Positions 4,382 through 52,518 of a stretch of 64,000 nt of DNA are shown in pieces. Position 1 is the stretch's first letter. Each line of letters starts with the position of its first letter. The translations under genes and the position numbers were made by a program. The stretch is from assembly GCA_028279405.1 (NCBI GenBank), contig JANQNU010000087.1, positions 62,001-126,000 on the forward strand. The letters are read 5' to 3'. The notes below the pieces were generated by a model. That model saw only the letters and a program-made list of their open reading frames with translations. It was not told the DNA's origin and searched no databases. Origin of the DNA: Phycisphaerae bacterium. Lineage in GTDB: Bacteria; Planctomycetota; Phycisphaerae; UBA1845; Fen-1342.

Positions 4382-4464
4382 GGGCGTGTGCCCGAGTGGA
4401 CAAAGGGGACGGGCTGTAAACCCGTTGGCGATGCCTACCGCTGGTTCGAATCCAGCCGCGCCCA
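4382..4464 (+). tRNA. tRNA-Tyr (anticodon GTA)
   Basis: An 83-nt class II tRNA. The acceptor stem is GGGCGTG (4382-4388) with CGCGCCC (4457-4463), and the discriminator is A4464. The anticodon stem ACGGG/CCCGT encloses the 7-nt loop CTGTAAA, giving anticodon GTA at 4416-4418. The long variable arm (stem GGC/GCC) is typical of bacterial tRNA-Tyr. The T arm is GCTGG-TTCGAAT-CCAGC. The 3' CCA is not encoded. A GC-rich hairpin (CCGGGG and CCCCGG around CCTG, 4478-4493) follows and may end the transcript. Confidence 0.97.
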
Positions 4465-46890: not shown

Positions 46891-48915
46891 TTATTGAAGG
46901 CTGACGAGCACGAGCACCAGTCCGGTTCCGGAATCGAGAGCGGTCATCGCTTTGCCGATGATCGCGCCACGGGCGGCATCATGATCGCGCACCTTCATGG
47001 CGTGCCCCGGCGTGTCGGCGGTCGTGAGCAGATCGCCGGGCTGGATTGCGCCGCTCCGCGCGTCGCAATGCACGTAGACGCGGCCGGTCAAGGCGACCGG
47101 GAACTGGCCGTCGGCGACGGTGCCGGACTGCCCCATGAGCATTCCGGTTTCGACACCCCCGGCGCCGCTGATGATGCCGGCGACGGTTCGGTCATGCGCC
47201 TGGTCACTGACGACCAGCTTGCCGGGGTTTTCGGGGTCGATGCAGACGACCATCCCCGGCAGGGGCTCGGCCGCGTCCTGTTTACCATTCGTCGTTTGGC
47301 GCGTTCGGACGTCAAACTGCTCCGAAAGATCGCTGCCGCCGGTGATTTGCAGGACCTTGGTCATGGTGATGCCGTCGGTGCCGACCTGGAAGACGAGGTC
47401 TCCGCCGTTCGCGCCCGCAAAGCCCTTGATGACCTGGCCGCCGCCGCGGTTGACGAACACCGCATTGCTATCGCTGCTGTTGGAGGTCGAGAACAGGGCA
47501 ATGCCGTTGCTGTTGGTGTTCTCGATCGAGGCGGCCGGCGATGCGAGTCCGCTGCCGACTCCCTGGGCACGGAGCGCGATTGCGTTGGTCGTGAATCCCC
47601 GTGCTTCGACGCCGATGCCGCTGTTGGAGGATCCGAACGTGCCGGTACCGCTGCTGCTGAAACCGTAGATGCCCCAGCCGCCGCTGACCGCGTTCCCGTA
47701 GACGCCGCGACCCCCGGTGGAGCGACCGTAGACGCCCCAGCCGCCGCTGGCGTGCAGGCCATAGACGCCGTAGCCGAGGCCGTTTGTGCCGTTGTTTTCG
47801 CCGAAGACGCCGGCGGAACCGCTTCCGGACAATGTGCTGGTGACCTCGCCGTGGATGGCGTAGGCGCCCGAGTCGGAACTGAGGGTCTGGCCGAGGATTC
47901 CGGTCTCGTTGTTGGATCGGCCGAAGACGCCGAAATCGTTGACGCTCGTGCCGAAGACGCCGACGTTGTCGGTGGAGAGGCCGAAGACCCCGAGCCCGTC
48001 CGCGGACTGGCCGAGGACGCCGGCGCCGGCGCCGTGATTCCGGCCGTAGACGCCGTAGGTGCTTGCGCCGCCATTTTCTTCGACTTCCCCGAAGACGCCC
48101 GCGGCCCCGCCGGTGTTGGATGCGGTCAGGCCATGGACGCCGTAGGCGGCGCCGGATTCGCTGTTATGTTCGCCGAAGACGCCGCTGCTGCCGTTTCCGG
48201 ACGATGTGGTCAGGCCGCGGATTCCGTGGCCGACACCGCTGGCGTTGAAGTGCAGGCCGTAGACGCCGGACGCGGTCGCGCCGGTGGCTCGGCCGTAGAC
48301 GCCGCGGCCGCTCGAGCCGGCCGACTCGCCGTAGACGCCGTAGCCGCCAAGCGATGCGGAAGTCGTGATCCCGCGCACGCCCATGGCGGCGGAGGTGCCT
48401 GAGTTGTTTTCACCACTGATCGTGTAAAACGGCGTGTTTGCCGAGAGCACGAGCGGGTTGGGCACGTTCTGCAGGAAGGCGGCCGAATCGATGCCGTCCA
48501 GGGTGTCGGCGTCCGTTGCGCTGTCGGCATTTTCCGCGTGCAGCGCATTTGCGGCGAAGGCCGCGTACGTCAACTCCTGCCGGCCGGACAGGGTCGTATA
48601 GGTCGGGTCCCGGTCGCGCTTGACCGAGATTTCCAGCCAGCGTGTCTGCGAGCCGATGTTTGCCAATTGGGGCATTTCGAAGACCAGGGTGAACAGTCCT
48701 TGGTCGACGTCGACGCCGTCGACATCGACGGTCGCGATCGGGAATCCCAGGATCGCGCGGTCGTAGAGGCGGATTCGGAAATCTGCCAGACCGTCGTAGG
48801 GCTGGCTCTGAAAGTCCAGGATGCCCTGATAGGTGATGGGAACGTTGCTACCGGCAAATGCGGTCGTGGCGACCACCAGAGCCGCCATGCTGTTGAGAAT
48901 GCACCATTTTCGCAT
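46891..48915 (-). CDS. Exported GVYG/GVFG-repeat protein with processing-like C-terminus
   Basis: 674 residues. The signal peptide is NSMAALVVATTAFA. The N-terminal domain (VPITYQGILDFQSQPYDGLADFRIRLYD) is typical of exported planctomycete proteins. Residues ~180-470 contain about twenty GxYG, GVFG or GVHG units spaced 8-20 residues, like tail-fibre triple-stranded beta-helices. The C-terminal ~170 residues (GSDLSEQFDVR, VVCIDPENPGKLVVSDQ, VALTGRVYVHCDARSGAIQPGDLL, ending LVLVLVSLQ) resemble intramolecular-chaperone/peptidase G2-type ends that cleave themselves after folding; the match is by eye. A good GGAGGA site precedes ATG 48915. It is the first gene of a three-gene exported-protein operon. 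Confidence 0.8.
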   Translation of the reverse strand: MRKWCILNSMAALVVATTAFAGSNVPITYQGILDFQSQPYDGLADFRIRLYDRAILGFPIATVDVDGVDVDQGLFTLVFEMPQLANIGSQTRWLEISVKRDRDPTYTTLSGRQELTYAAFAANALHAENADSATDADTLDGIDSAAFLQNVPNPLVLSANTPFYTISGENNSGTSAAMGVRGITTSASLGGYGVYGESAGSSGRGVYGRATGATASGVYGLHFNASGVGHGIRGLTTSSGNGSSGVFGEHNSESGAAYGVHGLTASNTGGAAGVFGEVEENGGASTYGVYGRNHGAGAGVLGQSADGLGVFGLSTDNVGVFGTSVNDFGVFGRSNNETGILGQTLSSDSGAYAIHGEVTSTLSGSGSAGVFGENNGTNGLGYGVYGLHASGGWGVYGRSTGGRGVYGNAVSGGWGIYGFSSSGTGTFGSSNSGIGVEARGFTTNAIALRAQGVGSGLASPAASIENTNSNGIALFSTSNSSDSNAVFVNRGGGQVIKGFAGANGGDLVFQVGTDGITMTKVLQITGGSDLSEQFDVRTRQTTNGKQDAAEPLPGMVVCIDPENPGKLVVSDQAHDRTVAGIISGAGGVETGMLMGQSGTVADGQFPVALTGRVYVHCDARSGAIQPGDLLTTADTPGHAMKVRDHDAARGAIIGKAMTALDSGTGLVLVLVSLQ

Positions 48916-49180
48916 TGTTGTCGTCCTCCAGAATGAACGCGGTCAGCGCGGGGCCTTCGCCCGCTACATCGCATCGCGACGTAACTGGCGGCAGACTGCG
49001 GACTTTTTTTGGAGAGATTTGCGAGAGCATCCCGACGTGGAAGGATCGCGTGGTTACCGGTCCGTCGTCAGGTTCGAGCATACACCTTCCGCGTGCGATC
49101 CGATATGATCGACCATGGTGGTTCCGTCGGTCCGCTGTGGTCTGGCGGTTTGTCCTACGTTGTTCGGGAGTGCCACACTC

Positions 49181-50092
49181 GTGTCCAGCTATCACCTGAC
49201 CCACTTGAAGCAGCTCGAATCCGAGAGCATCCACATCATTCGCGAGGTCGTCGCGGAGTTCGAGCGGCCGGTCATGCTCTATTCGATCGGCAAGGACTCG
49301 GCGGTGATGCTGCACCTGGCACTGAAGGCATTTCACCCGGGCAAACCCCCGTTCCCGCTCCTGCACGTCGATACGACTTGGAAGTTCCGCGAGATGATCC
49401 GGTTCCGCGACGAGTACGTCGGCAAAGAGCTGGGGCTCGAACTGCTGGTACACACGAACCAGGAGGGTGTCGCGGCCGGCGTCTCGCCGTTCACGCACGG
49501 CAGCAAGAAGCACACCCATATCATGAAGACGGTGGCACTGAAGCAGGCGCTCGACCTGCATCGCTTCGACGCGGCTTTTGGCGGCGCTCGGCGAGACGAG
49601 GAGAAATCGCGGGCCAAAGAGCGTGTCTACTCGTTCCGTGATCGCAACCACACCTGGGATCCGCGCAACCAGCGCCCCGAACTCTGGAACCTCTACAACG
49701 GTTTCGTTAATCAGCAGGAGAGTATCCGTGTCTTCCCGCTCTCGAACTGGACCGAGCTGGACGTCTGGCAATACGTTCACTTGGAGCAGATCCCCCTTGT
49801 CCCGCTGTACTTCGCCGCCCCGCGCCCGGTCGTCAACCGCGACGGCGTGCTCATTATGGTCGACGACGATCGGATGGAACTCGCGCCAGGCGAGCAGCCT
49901 GAGACCAAAACGGTCCGATTTCGTACGCTCGGTTGTTATCCGTTGACCGGAGCTGTCGAATCCACCGCGACCACGCTGCCCGAAATCATCCAGGAAATGC
50001 TCCTGACCAAACACTCGGAGCGTCAGGGTCGCGTGATCGACTACGACCAATCGGGCTCGATGGAAGAGAAAAAGAAGGAAGGGTACTTCTAG
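49181..50092 (+). CDS. cysD: Sulfate adenylyltransferase subunit 2
   Basis: 303 residues, the normal length of CysD. It has the ATP-binding PP-loop variant [33 protein letters not shown] and the characteristic C-terminal run ([15 protein letters not shown], then [22 protein letters not shown]). With the GTPase CysN it makes APS from sulfate and ATP. The start is placed at GTG 49181 just before [12 protein letters not shown], with GGGAG upstream; the frame extends to 49115, but that part is not CysD-like. No cysN follows; downstream are only hairpins. Confidence 0.96.
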
Positions 50093-50119
50093 ATCTCGAC
50101 CAACATCTTGGTGCGCATG

Positions 50120-50144
50120 GTCCCCCGCTTCCAGGATGGGGGAC
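50120..50144. repeat. Hairpin GTCCCCC/GGGGGAC
   Basis: A 7-bp perfect stem, 11-nt loop. First of the series after cysD, and it could serve as the cysD transcript end. Confidence 0.55.
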
Positions 50145-50219
50145 GTCCCGACGCGAACCGAACACCAAACACAACGAGTCCCGAGCGCGAGCGAGGGGTC
50201 ATGGCGCGCGTCCGGGTGG

Positions 50220-50241
50220 CACTGGTAGCTTGCTACCAGCG
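50220..50241. repeat. Dispersed palindromic element, second copy
   Basis: CTGGTAGC and GCTACCAG around TT, preceded by GGGTGGCA as at 4676-4697. An outer base pair is lost (A opposite C). Confidence 0.7.
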
Positions 50242-50295
50242 TTTGGACGATGCTGGGACGAGATCGGTAGGTCCACACTGACGTCCGATCGAGCA

Positions 50296-50372
50296 CGGTG
50301 CCCCACCCTTCTAGGGTGGGGGACGCGTTTCGATCAGCAAGTCAATGTGTCCCCCAGGGTAGAACCCTGGGG
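50296..50372. repeat. Pair of inverted-relative covarying hairpins
   Basis: Copy A: CCCCACCCT-TCT-AGGGTGGGG (50301-50321). Copy B: CCCCAGGGT-AGA-ACCCTGGGG (50352-50372). Read on the other strand, B has the same outer frame as A (GGTGCCCCA before, TGGGGGAC after) and the same TCT loop. Its inner stem is GGGT/ACCC where A has CCCT/AGGG. Three base pairs are flipped on both sides with pairing preserved. Confidence 0.75.
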
Positions 50373-50406
50373 CACCTACACCATCTTAACGCGAAGTGAT
50401 GACTGA

Positions 50407-50431
50407 ACACTGGCGGCTTGTCCGCCAGTGT
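50407..50431. repeat. Dispersed palindromic element, CTTGT-loop copy
   Basis: Arms ACACTGGCGG and CCGCCAGTGT, a perfect 10-bp stem around CTTGT. The outer CACTGG/CCAGTG pairs are identical to those at 4676-4697, while the inner pairs differ on both sides. Confidence 0.75.
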
Positions 50432-50449
50432 CGGGACGTGCGCAAACCA

Positions 50450-50501
50450 AGGGTGGGGCGGGCGTCTCGCCCACCGTTGGACCTGTCGCTAGCGCTCCAG
50501 G
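50450..50501. repeat. Copy of the GGGTGGGGCGGGCG element
   Basis: AGGGTGGGGCGGGCG-TCT-CGCCCACC followed by TCGCTAGCGCTCC. It resembles 43511-43562 (AGGGTGGGGCGGGCG-CCT-CGCCCGCC, then TCGCTTGCGCTCC). The two composites share order and spacing. Confidence 0.65.
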
Positions 50502-50542
50502 CTTGCGTCGGGTGCCATGCCGACGCGGAGCGTTCGGTATGC

Positions 50543-50977
50543 CTACGCAGCTTCGACTTTTGATATCAGGGCCGCGATCACCGCGCGTAGGGACCAGGCC
50601 GCAGTTCGAACCCAGTTCGTCGCGACCAGCCGCCGGGCGACGATCGGGTCGAAGCCTGCCATTAGCTTTGTGTGACAGGGGACCTGCAGGAACGCGGTCG
50701 AGCCCCAGACCACGATCACCAGGATCGCCCCGATGAGTGCAAGGGTGTGCGACGTTCCCGCCTCCGCCAGAAACAACAGCATCGCAGCTGTTACGGCCTC
50801 CACGCCCATCAGCGGGGCGACAAGCCAGGTGATGCGCGATGTGTGTGCTCGTTCGTACGCGCTGAATGCCTCCTCGCCTACCATTGCGTACAGCGGGTAG
50901 TGAACGAGCTGAACGAACCAGATCAGGCCGGCCATCATGATCGTCGCTAGTGTGTGCAGCGCAAACAGCGTGTCCAT
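50543..50977 (-). CDS. Four-helix membrane protein
   Basis: 144 residues from ATG 50977 with four hydrophobic helices (LFALHTLATIMMAGLIWFVQLVHYPLY; ITWLVAPLMGVEAVTAAMLLFL; TLALIGAILVIVVWGSTAFLQ; a weaker one near WVRTAAWSLRAVIAALI). The pattern WFVQLVHYPLY...VPCHTKL resembles uncharacterised small membrane proteins with conserved His and Pro. It starts 2 nt after the stop of the SDR gene, so it is translated from the same mRNA. The function is unknown. Confidence 0.7.
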   Translation of the reverse strand: MDTLFALHTLATIMMAGLIWFVQLVHYPLYAMVGEEAFSAYERAHTSRITWLVAPLMGVEAVTAAMLLFLAEAGTSHTLALIGAILVIVVWGSTAFLQVPCHTKLMAGFDPIVARRLVATNWVRTAAWSLRAVIAALISKVEAA

Positions 50978-50979
50978 CT

Positions 50980-52518
50980 CTATGTACTCTTCGTCTGTTG
51001 GCTTGGGTTCGCGTAGGGGCGCGGCACGGTGGGCGGGTTCGGTCGTCGCTCGCGAACCGCGCGTTCCGCTGCTTGTCGGATTCCCTTGAGCATGCCCTCG
51101 AACACCAGCCCGTGTAACGGCATGACGGAGTACCAATATGCGAGCCCCGTCAGCCCTTTCGGCTGGAAGACCGCGGTCTGGGTGAGCGTCGCGCGCTCCG
51201 GGTTGCGGTCGTTCGGTTGCACTCCGAAGCGGAGGATGGCGATTCCGGGGAGCTTCATTTCCGCGCGCAGCTCCAATTGGCGGTTCGGCTCGACCGCCGT
51301 GACCCGCCAGAAGTCGAGGGCCTCACCAAATGCGAGTTGCCGCGGATCGCGCCGTCCGCGACGCAACCCCGGTCCTCCGACAAGTCTGTCCATCCAGCCG
51401 CGCACCTGCCACAGCCAGTCCGCAGCGTAGTATCCGTTCGCGCCGCCAATCCGCGCCACAGCCGCGTAGACCGTTTCCGGGGGGGCTTCGACCTCAACCG
51501 AGCGCTCGTCACGGAACAACTTGCCGCCGGCCCAGTCGGGGTCGCCGGGCATCGGCCCCGCGTCGAACCACGCGGTCTTGATCTCAGCGTCCCGGGTTCG
51601 GCTCAACGCGGCTTCAATTGCCTCGCGAATCGTCAGCAGCCGTTGCGGCATGAGCCGTTCGGCGGCGTCATCGCGACAGACGACGCGGTTGCGCAGGCCT
51701 TCGGCCAGCGGGCGCGCGATTCGCCGACTCACCGGCGTCACCAGGTGAATCCACAGCGAACTGAGCCGCGGCGTCAGGACCGGGACGGTCACGATGATCC
51801 GCTTGCGCAGTCCGAGCGCGGCCGCCATCGTCTGCATGAGTTCTTTGTACGTCACGATCTCGGGGCCACCGATGTCGAGCGTCCGCCCGACCGTCTCCGG
51901 CACGCCCAGGCAAGCCACGAGATAATGCAGCACGTTGCGAACCGCGATCGGCTGCGACTCGGTCCTGACCCAGCGCGGCGTGAACATGACCGGCAACCGC
52001 TCGACCAGATACCGCAGAATCTCGAACGATGCCGAGCCCGAGCCGATGATCATCGCCGCCCGCAGTACCGTGAGCGGTACCGGGCCCGACGCCAGTGCTC
52101 GCTCGACTTCGCGCCGAGATGTAAGGTGCTCACTCAGTCGCGGGCCCGTTTCTCCCAGCCCACCGAGATAGATGATCCGCTCCAGCCCAGCGTCTGCTGC
52201 TGCGGACGCAAACGTCTCGCCTAGCGCGCGATCACGCTCGCGATACGCAGGCCCGACCGCTTCCATCGAGTGCACCAGATAGTACGCCGACCCACACCCC
52301 GCCATGGACCGCGACAACGTTGCTCCGTCGCTAACGTCGCAGCGCACGACTTCGACGTCCGGGCTCGTTACCCACGGGCGCGATTCCAGCTTGCGCGGCT
52401 CCCGCGCAGCGCAGCGTACGCGGTAGCCTGCCGCCAGGAGCCGCTGGACCAACCGGCCACCGATGTAGCCGCTGGCGCCGGTCACGAATACCGGCTTTCG
52501 GAATGAATCTGCGCTCAT
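50980..52518 (-). CDS. NAD(P)-binding epimerase-like protein with DUF2867-type C-terminus
   Basis: 512 residues. The Rossmann motif GASGYIGGRLV (14-24) begins an extended SDR domain of atypical type (NAD-dependent epimerase/NmrA-like, no clear YxxxK; the region YLVHSMEAVGPAY takes that place). From about residue 325 a second domain (WFDAGPMPGDPDWAGGKLFRDERSVEVEAPPETVYAAVARIGG...) matches the polyketide-cyclase-like DUF2867 arrangement found fused to such SDRs. The substrate is unknown. The middle of a four-gene operon with PAP2, cupin and the four-helix protein. Confidence 0.85.
   Translation of the reverse strand: MSADSFRKPVFVTGASGYIGGRLVQRLLAAGYRVRCAAREPRKLESRPWVTSPDVEVVRCDVSDGATLSRSMAGCGSAYYLVHSMEAVGPAYRERDRALGETFASAAADAGLERIIYLGGLGETGPRLSEHLTSRREVERALASGPVPLTVLRAAMIIGSGSASFEILRYLVERLPVMFTPRWVRTESQPIAVRNVLHYLVACLGVPETVGRTLDIGGPEIVTYKELMQTMAAALGLRKRIIVTVPVLTPRLSSLWIHLVTPVSRRIARPLAEGLRNRVVCRDDAAERLMPQRLLTIREAIEAALSRTRDAEIKTAWFDAGPMPGDPDWAGGKLFRDERSVEVEAPPETVYAAVARIGGANGYYAADWLWQVRGWMDRLVGGPGLRRGRRDPRQLAFGEALDFWRVTAVEPNRQLELRAEMKLPGIAILRFGVQPNDRNPERATLTQTAVFQPKGLTGLAYWYSVMPLHGLVFEGMLKGIRQAAERAVRERRPNPPTVPRPYANPSQQTKST

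Follow-up and report, generated by a model that had tools for sequence, protein, structure and literature searches.

The region downstream of cysD in the analysed stretch of a Phycisphaerae bacterium genome (64,000 nucleotides, hereafter the window) contains two similar hairpins, which raises the question of whether they are diverged versions of a single conserved structure, as an earlier note on this DNA had claimed, or parts of something else. The hairpin on the plus strand (50297-50324) reads GGTGCCCCA CCCT TCT AGGG TGGGGGAC, the one on the minus strand (50349-50376) reads GGTGCCCCA GGGT TCT ACCC TGGGGGAC, and the distance between them is 24 bp. Re-reading both hairpins bore out the outer frame, the TCT loop and the three exchanged base pairs described in the earlier note; the hairpins themselves are real, but their positions lie slightly to the right of the range given there (50296-50372). 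When the window was searched for this pattern with three mismatches allowed, five matches were found, four of which come from these two hairpins, each counted once per strand, as compared to 0.34 +/- 0.54 matches in the shuffled window. As single-stranded DNA, the 80 nucleotides have a folding energy of -23.9 kcal/mol (z = -5.1).

Rather than being independent structured RNAs, the hairpins belong to a single REPIN/BIME of 80 bp, in which each is one arm, inverted relative to the other. The complete REPIN, an inverted REP pair with the GGTG feet outermost, occupies positions 50297 to 50376. Its type B arm on the plus strand (50297-50324) comprises a GGTG foot, a stem of CCCCACCC/GGGTGGGG, a T-A pair that closes the TCT loop and a GAC tail. 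The arm is followed by a 24-bp spacer (50325-50348) and by the type A arm on the minus strand (50349-50376), which has the same frame and a GGG/CCC inner stem. We assign a probability of about 90% to the reading that this is a non-autonomous repeat of two inverted REP hairpins with GGTG feet, which would be mobilized and copied by a RAYT.

The REPIN is located in a gap of approximately 450 bp that is bounded by the 3' ends of cysD, which encodes sulfate adenylyltransferase subunit 2 (49115-50092, plus strand, predicted start) and faces the REP island, and of a convergent hydrophobic ORF without Pfam match (50543-51136, minus strand, predicted start). Extragenic placement between cysD and the next ORF is thus seen at this one locus. 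The same gap (50093-50542) contains at least five further REP-like units, all annotated on the plus strand: a degenerate solo REP of type B-like sequence (GGTCCCCCG...TGGGGGAC, 50119-50144); a type F REP (GGTGGCACTGGTAG..., 50215-50244) of a second REPIN family, which also flanks the RAYT gene of this genome; a type E REP core with a degenerate foot (CACTGGCGGCTTGTCCGCCAGTG, 50408-50430); and two units of other repeats with a GGTG foot, namely one of a family (GGTGGGGCGGGCGTCTCGCCC, 50452-50472) with 55 copies in the 1.6 Mb sampled and the beginning of one (GGTGCCATGCCGACGCG, 50511-50527) with 11 copies in that sample. Elsewhere in the window, a 674-amino acid ORF on the minus strand (46891-48915) shows by eye many GVYG-type repeats and probably encodes a secreted or surface repeat protein.

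The genome-wide search that the earlier note had suggested revealed far more than two copies. Across all 92 contigs of the genome (5.6 Mb), 113 exact-frame copies were found, while the reversed control gave none. A bidirectional intrinsic terminator between the convergent genes would agree with the position after cysD and with the GC-rich stem, but a T tract is lacking, the terminator scan returned zero hits and the consensus of the more than 100 copies is not that of a terminator, which leaves this explanation with hardly any probability.

The arm types were determined in a 1.6 Mb sample, consisting of the 64-kb window and additional stretches, many of which were picked near REPs, and the counts therefore do not imply a genome-wide density. 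In this sample, the copies sort into discrete arm types, i.e. type A (GGGTTCTACCC), type B (CCCTTCTAGGG), type C (CCCCATCTTGGGG), type D (TCCCTTCCAGGGA) and the types of the second family, E and F (GGTGGCACTGGCGG.../GGTGGCACTGGTAG...). Inverted pairs in which GGTG is outermost were formed by A and B (30), C and D (10) or E and F (14); homotypic pairs were absent for A, B, C, D and F and were found twice for E, and mixed-family pairs occurred once each for A with C and B with D. Heterotypic pairs thus account for 54 of the 56 same-family inverted pairs within 90 bp, where random assortment predicts 25.9 +/- 3.7, although this figure is descriptive because pairs within one genome share descent and are not 54 independent events. 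The two hairpins are accordingly the unlike arms of one mobile repeat, and the reading as diverged copies of a single structure does not hold.

The internal organization of the pairs is also conserved. The gap varies little, being 24 bp for A/B (21-25 bp in 29 of the 30 pairs, 24 bp in the window), 13-19 bp for C/D and about 61 bp for E/F (range 55-62 bp). All A/B copies have one common spacer consensus and their flanks diverge within a few bases. Arms A and B share an identical GGTG foot and outer stem. With no motif chosen beforehand, GGTG came out as the tetranucleotide with the highest enrichment (10.6-fold) at perfect-hairpin feet, and a G precedes GTG in nearly all listed cores; the foot can be read as GGTG or, shifted by one base, as GTGC, and it reads GTGG in the E/F family. 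Many dispersed short palindromes, inverted REPs at conserved spacing and a conserved 5' tetranucleotide, i.e. the features by which REPINs and BIMEs are recognized, are all present. Another repeat (CGAGCGCAAGCGAGGGGATC), with approximately 47 copies in the 1.6 Mb sample of this genome, sometimes adjoins the REPs.

Whether the stem itself is conserved depends on the level at which it is considered. In a set of 104 different inner stems, taken from this genome and its relatives, 381 of 416 pair cells contain standard pairs (shuffled mean 260, maximum 285), and 118 two-sided changes were counted in the same stems (shuffled mean 38, maximum 58). Within the arm types of this genome, however, 70 one-sided changes (51 broken pairs and 19 G-T pairs) are opposed by a single compensated one, which argues that individual loci are not under selection for structure. 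The claim of a conserved structure thus holds for the paired variation of inner stems and fails for single loci, where unpaired changes, which the earlier note had taken to speak against its claim if as frequent as paired ones, vastly predominate. The structure persists in lineages that replicate and from genome to genome, while single insertions decay, a combination that fits a mobile repeat rather than a functional RNA at each locus. A structured RNA conserved per locus, either cis-regulatory or stabilizing mRNA 3' ends, could still be proposed on the basis of the location after cysD between apparently convergent genes, the stable hairpins and the paired changes between types. The loss of pairing at individual loci without compensation, the fixed 80-bp dimeric unit with diverging flanks, and the Rfam search of the window, which at gathering score yielded only a tRNA (4382-4464), make such an RNA very improbable.

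If the locus is a REPIN, a RAYT should be associated with it. This genome encodes one RAYT (C30:48584-49051), which scores 87-87.5 bits against NCBIfam NF047646 (cut-off 80) and has E REPs, and not types A to D, on either side. The corresponding region (L013:8467-9143, C30 of G000 at approximately 48.5-49.1 kb) shows the gene between two inverted, near-identical E-type REPs and an additional F REP upstream, which makes it a REPtron for the E/F family. REPs of the GGTGCCCC type were looked for beside this RAYT and none was found, the E family being present there instead. The nearest named RAYT relatives are mostly from Planctomycetota, and it is on this ground alone that the lineage is termed planctomycete-like below.

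The link between the frame of the window hairpins and a RAYT is seen in the relatives. Of 114 genomes of the order, 36 contain the frame GGTGCCCCA-N9-15-TGGGGGAC and none the reversed control; a RAYT clade of the order, found from genome G024, is bracketed on both sides by GGTGCCCC[A/G]...TGGGGGAC REPs (e.g. L243, L244, L247 and L249; the flanking REP of L244 is GGTGCCCCACCCTTCCAGGGTGGGGGACT). G024 itself carries frame REPs on both sides of its RAYT gene, and the RAYTs of L199 and L244 score above the NF047646 cut-off. The GGTGCCCC-flanked genes group together in the RAYT tree (4 changes versus a shuffled mean of 11.8), and 18 of 21 belong to one clade with 96/98 support, in a sample for which similarity to this clade was part of the selection. 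Co-occurrence of this RAYT type with the REP frame (18/30 versus 18/84 genomes, p = 1.6e-4) is indicative, considering that the species are related. The GGTGCCCC-flanked clade is therefore the likely mobilizer of the A-D REPINs. A RAYT flanked by the same REPs is thus found in relatives within the order and not in the assembly of this genome, whose own RAYT shares only 30-31% identity with the cognate clade. When the assembly was searched at a low threshold for remains of the cognate gene, nothing was detected besides the E/F RAYT and one match of 12 bits. It seems that this genome has lost the cognate RAYT or that the gene was not assembled. Thus, the A-D elements may be relics, may be mobilized in trans, or the assembly, which is 95.5% complete, may lack their gene.

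Some RAYT-associated regions of other genomes deserve a separate description. Tandem 19-20-bp arrays of truncated GGTGCCCC units, which terminate in a full or nearly full REP, adjoin RAYT genes at L199:760-910 (G024) and L212:855-925 (G022). At L100 (G017:C112:7657-7830), a C-terminal RAYT fragment, 45 residues long and with 64% identity to the G024 RAYT, is found approximately 10 bp from an exact-frame REP, apparently as a decayed REPtron. On a Zixiibacteriota contig (L073:36-1460), RAYT-like genes are located amid GGTGCCCCACAGTTCTACTGTGGGAAA REPs, which indicates that GGTGCCCC-type REPs extend beyond the order.

The next question is why the two arms differ. Re-pairing arms at random across genomes gives a poor null, since the inner stems vary from one genome to another, and the observed identity was not below this null; heterotypy in the relatives was instead judged against the REP pairs that flank RAYT genes. 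In close inverted pairs of the relatives (gap 10-155 bp), the edit distance between inner stems is at least 3 in all 27 cases, whereas it is 0-1 in 8 of 13 RAYT-flanking pairs, which are 610-753 bp apart (Mann-Whitney p = 1.6e-5). Likewise, this genome has E on both sides of its RAYT, while its close pairs of this family are mostly E with F. Different genera carry different inner stems in their close pairs, and these are still heterotypic. This argues against a founder effect, in which one ancestral heterodimer was copied without any selection against arm pairing, as do the mostly near-identical RAYT-flanking arms of the same order. The single spacer consensus of all A/B copies and the non-independence of pairs within a genome would be expected from such an origin, which we nevertheless consider doubtful.

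The ends of IS200/IS605 elements are functionally different, and a transposase that needs a distinct left and right end would account for unlike arms without any avoidance of pairing. The BIMEs of E. coli, which combine y with z1 or z2 (PMC8266576), are in line with this possibility. However, the arms around RAYT genes are mostly homotypic, and the GGTG foot and the outer stem are common to both arms, which renders a need for two different ends rather unlikely.

The arms were also compared by folding energy. With DNA parameters, the A-B element reaches -23.1 kcal/mol as two hairpins and -17.7 kcal/mol as one long hairpin, while a hypothetical A-A element would form a long hairpin of -36.9 kcal/mol. 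For C-D and E-F, the energy model still slightly favors the long fold, although this fold is far weaker than in the homotypic versions. In the proposed mechanism, the RAYT would recognize a single-stranded hairpin with its 5' foot and copy the REPIN, with cleavage and strand transfer occurring on single-stranded DNA, to judge from E. coli TnpA-REP (PMC8266576). The inner stems GGG/CCC and CCC/GGG would stay unlike between the arms, each being self-complementary, since two identical arms with only 24 bp between them would fold into a single hairpin of 28 bp that would be prone to deletion and would conceal the REP hairpins. We slightly favor the view that the arms are kept different because this prevents them from pairing into one long hairpin. 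The avoided structure is likely a long hairpin or a cruciform, and nucleolytic removal or loss during replication, both of which have been suggested for REP heterodimers (PMC3733652), may be the selective agent; the sole result of a search for SbcD was a sub-threshold match. We consider it an even call whether selection acts throughout the order to keep each arm self-complementary and to prevent the two arms from being complementary to each other, with divergence only within approximately 150 bp and near-identity across the RAYT gene, and whether this explains REP heterodimers in general.

REPs, REPINs and heterodimers are already known. The REPINs of Pseudomonas fluorescens SBW25 and other bacteria (Bertels and Rainey 2011, PMC3116915) are likewise dispersed, RAYT-linked inverted REP doublets with conserved spacing, but they are predicted to form one long hairpin, whereas the arms described here are heterotypic and A-B favors two separate hairpins. 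REPtrons and RAYT classes (PMC6006769) as well as y/z BIMEs and hairpin recognition (PMC8266576) have also been established. The E. coli BIMEs (PMC8266576, PMC6006769) resemble the present elements in the inverted combination of two REP types (y with z1/z2), in the presence of foot and hairpin and in a RAYT flanked by REPs; they differ by a GTAG foot and bulged stems, where the present elements have GGTG and a stem that is uninterrupted above a G.G mismatch, and by the cognate RAYT, which was not found in this genome. A strict GTAG-type REP was ruled out because the foot is GGTG/GTGC and not the canonical GT[AG]G. The CGTC-tagged REPs (PMC3733652) are similar insofar as the present units, read backwards, start with NGTC and have a short tail and a stem of approximately 9 bp. 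This superfamily, which has A/T at the stem base and no link to a transposase, was also ruled out, because the present units have no such A/T pairs and, in the relatives, are linked to RAYTs.

GTAG-tagged REPs form head-head heterodimers that differ in stem residues, such as P. aeruginosa GTAG-24 with its different stems, for which 'no obvious explanation' was available (Di Nocera 2013, PMC3733652). The present elements differ from these by the GGTG foot, by their occurrence in many genera of one order and by the contrast between near and far pairs. As far as the literature examined shows, this contrast and the GGTG-footed superfamily with its RAYT clade are apparently new. An order-wide REP superfamily with GGTG feet and its RAYT clade are thereby described in a planctomycete-like lineage, and the contrast between near and far pairs bears on the heterodimer puzzle published in 2013. 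With one REP frame in which close pairs are always mismatched and RAYT-flanking pairs are mostly matched, the idea that arms avoid pairing with each other becomes directly testable and, if it is true, the avoidance of long hairpins would drive the diversification of REP stems.
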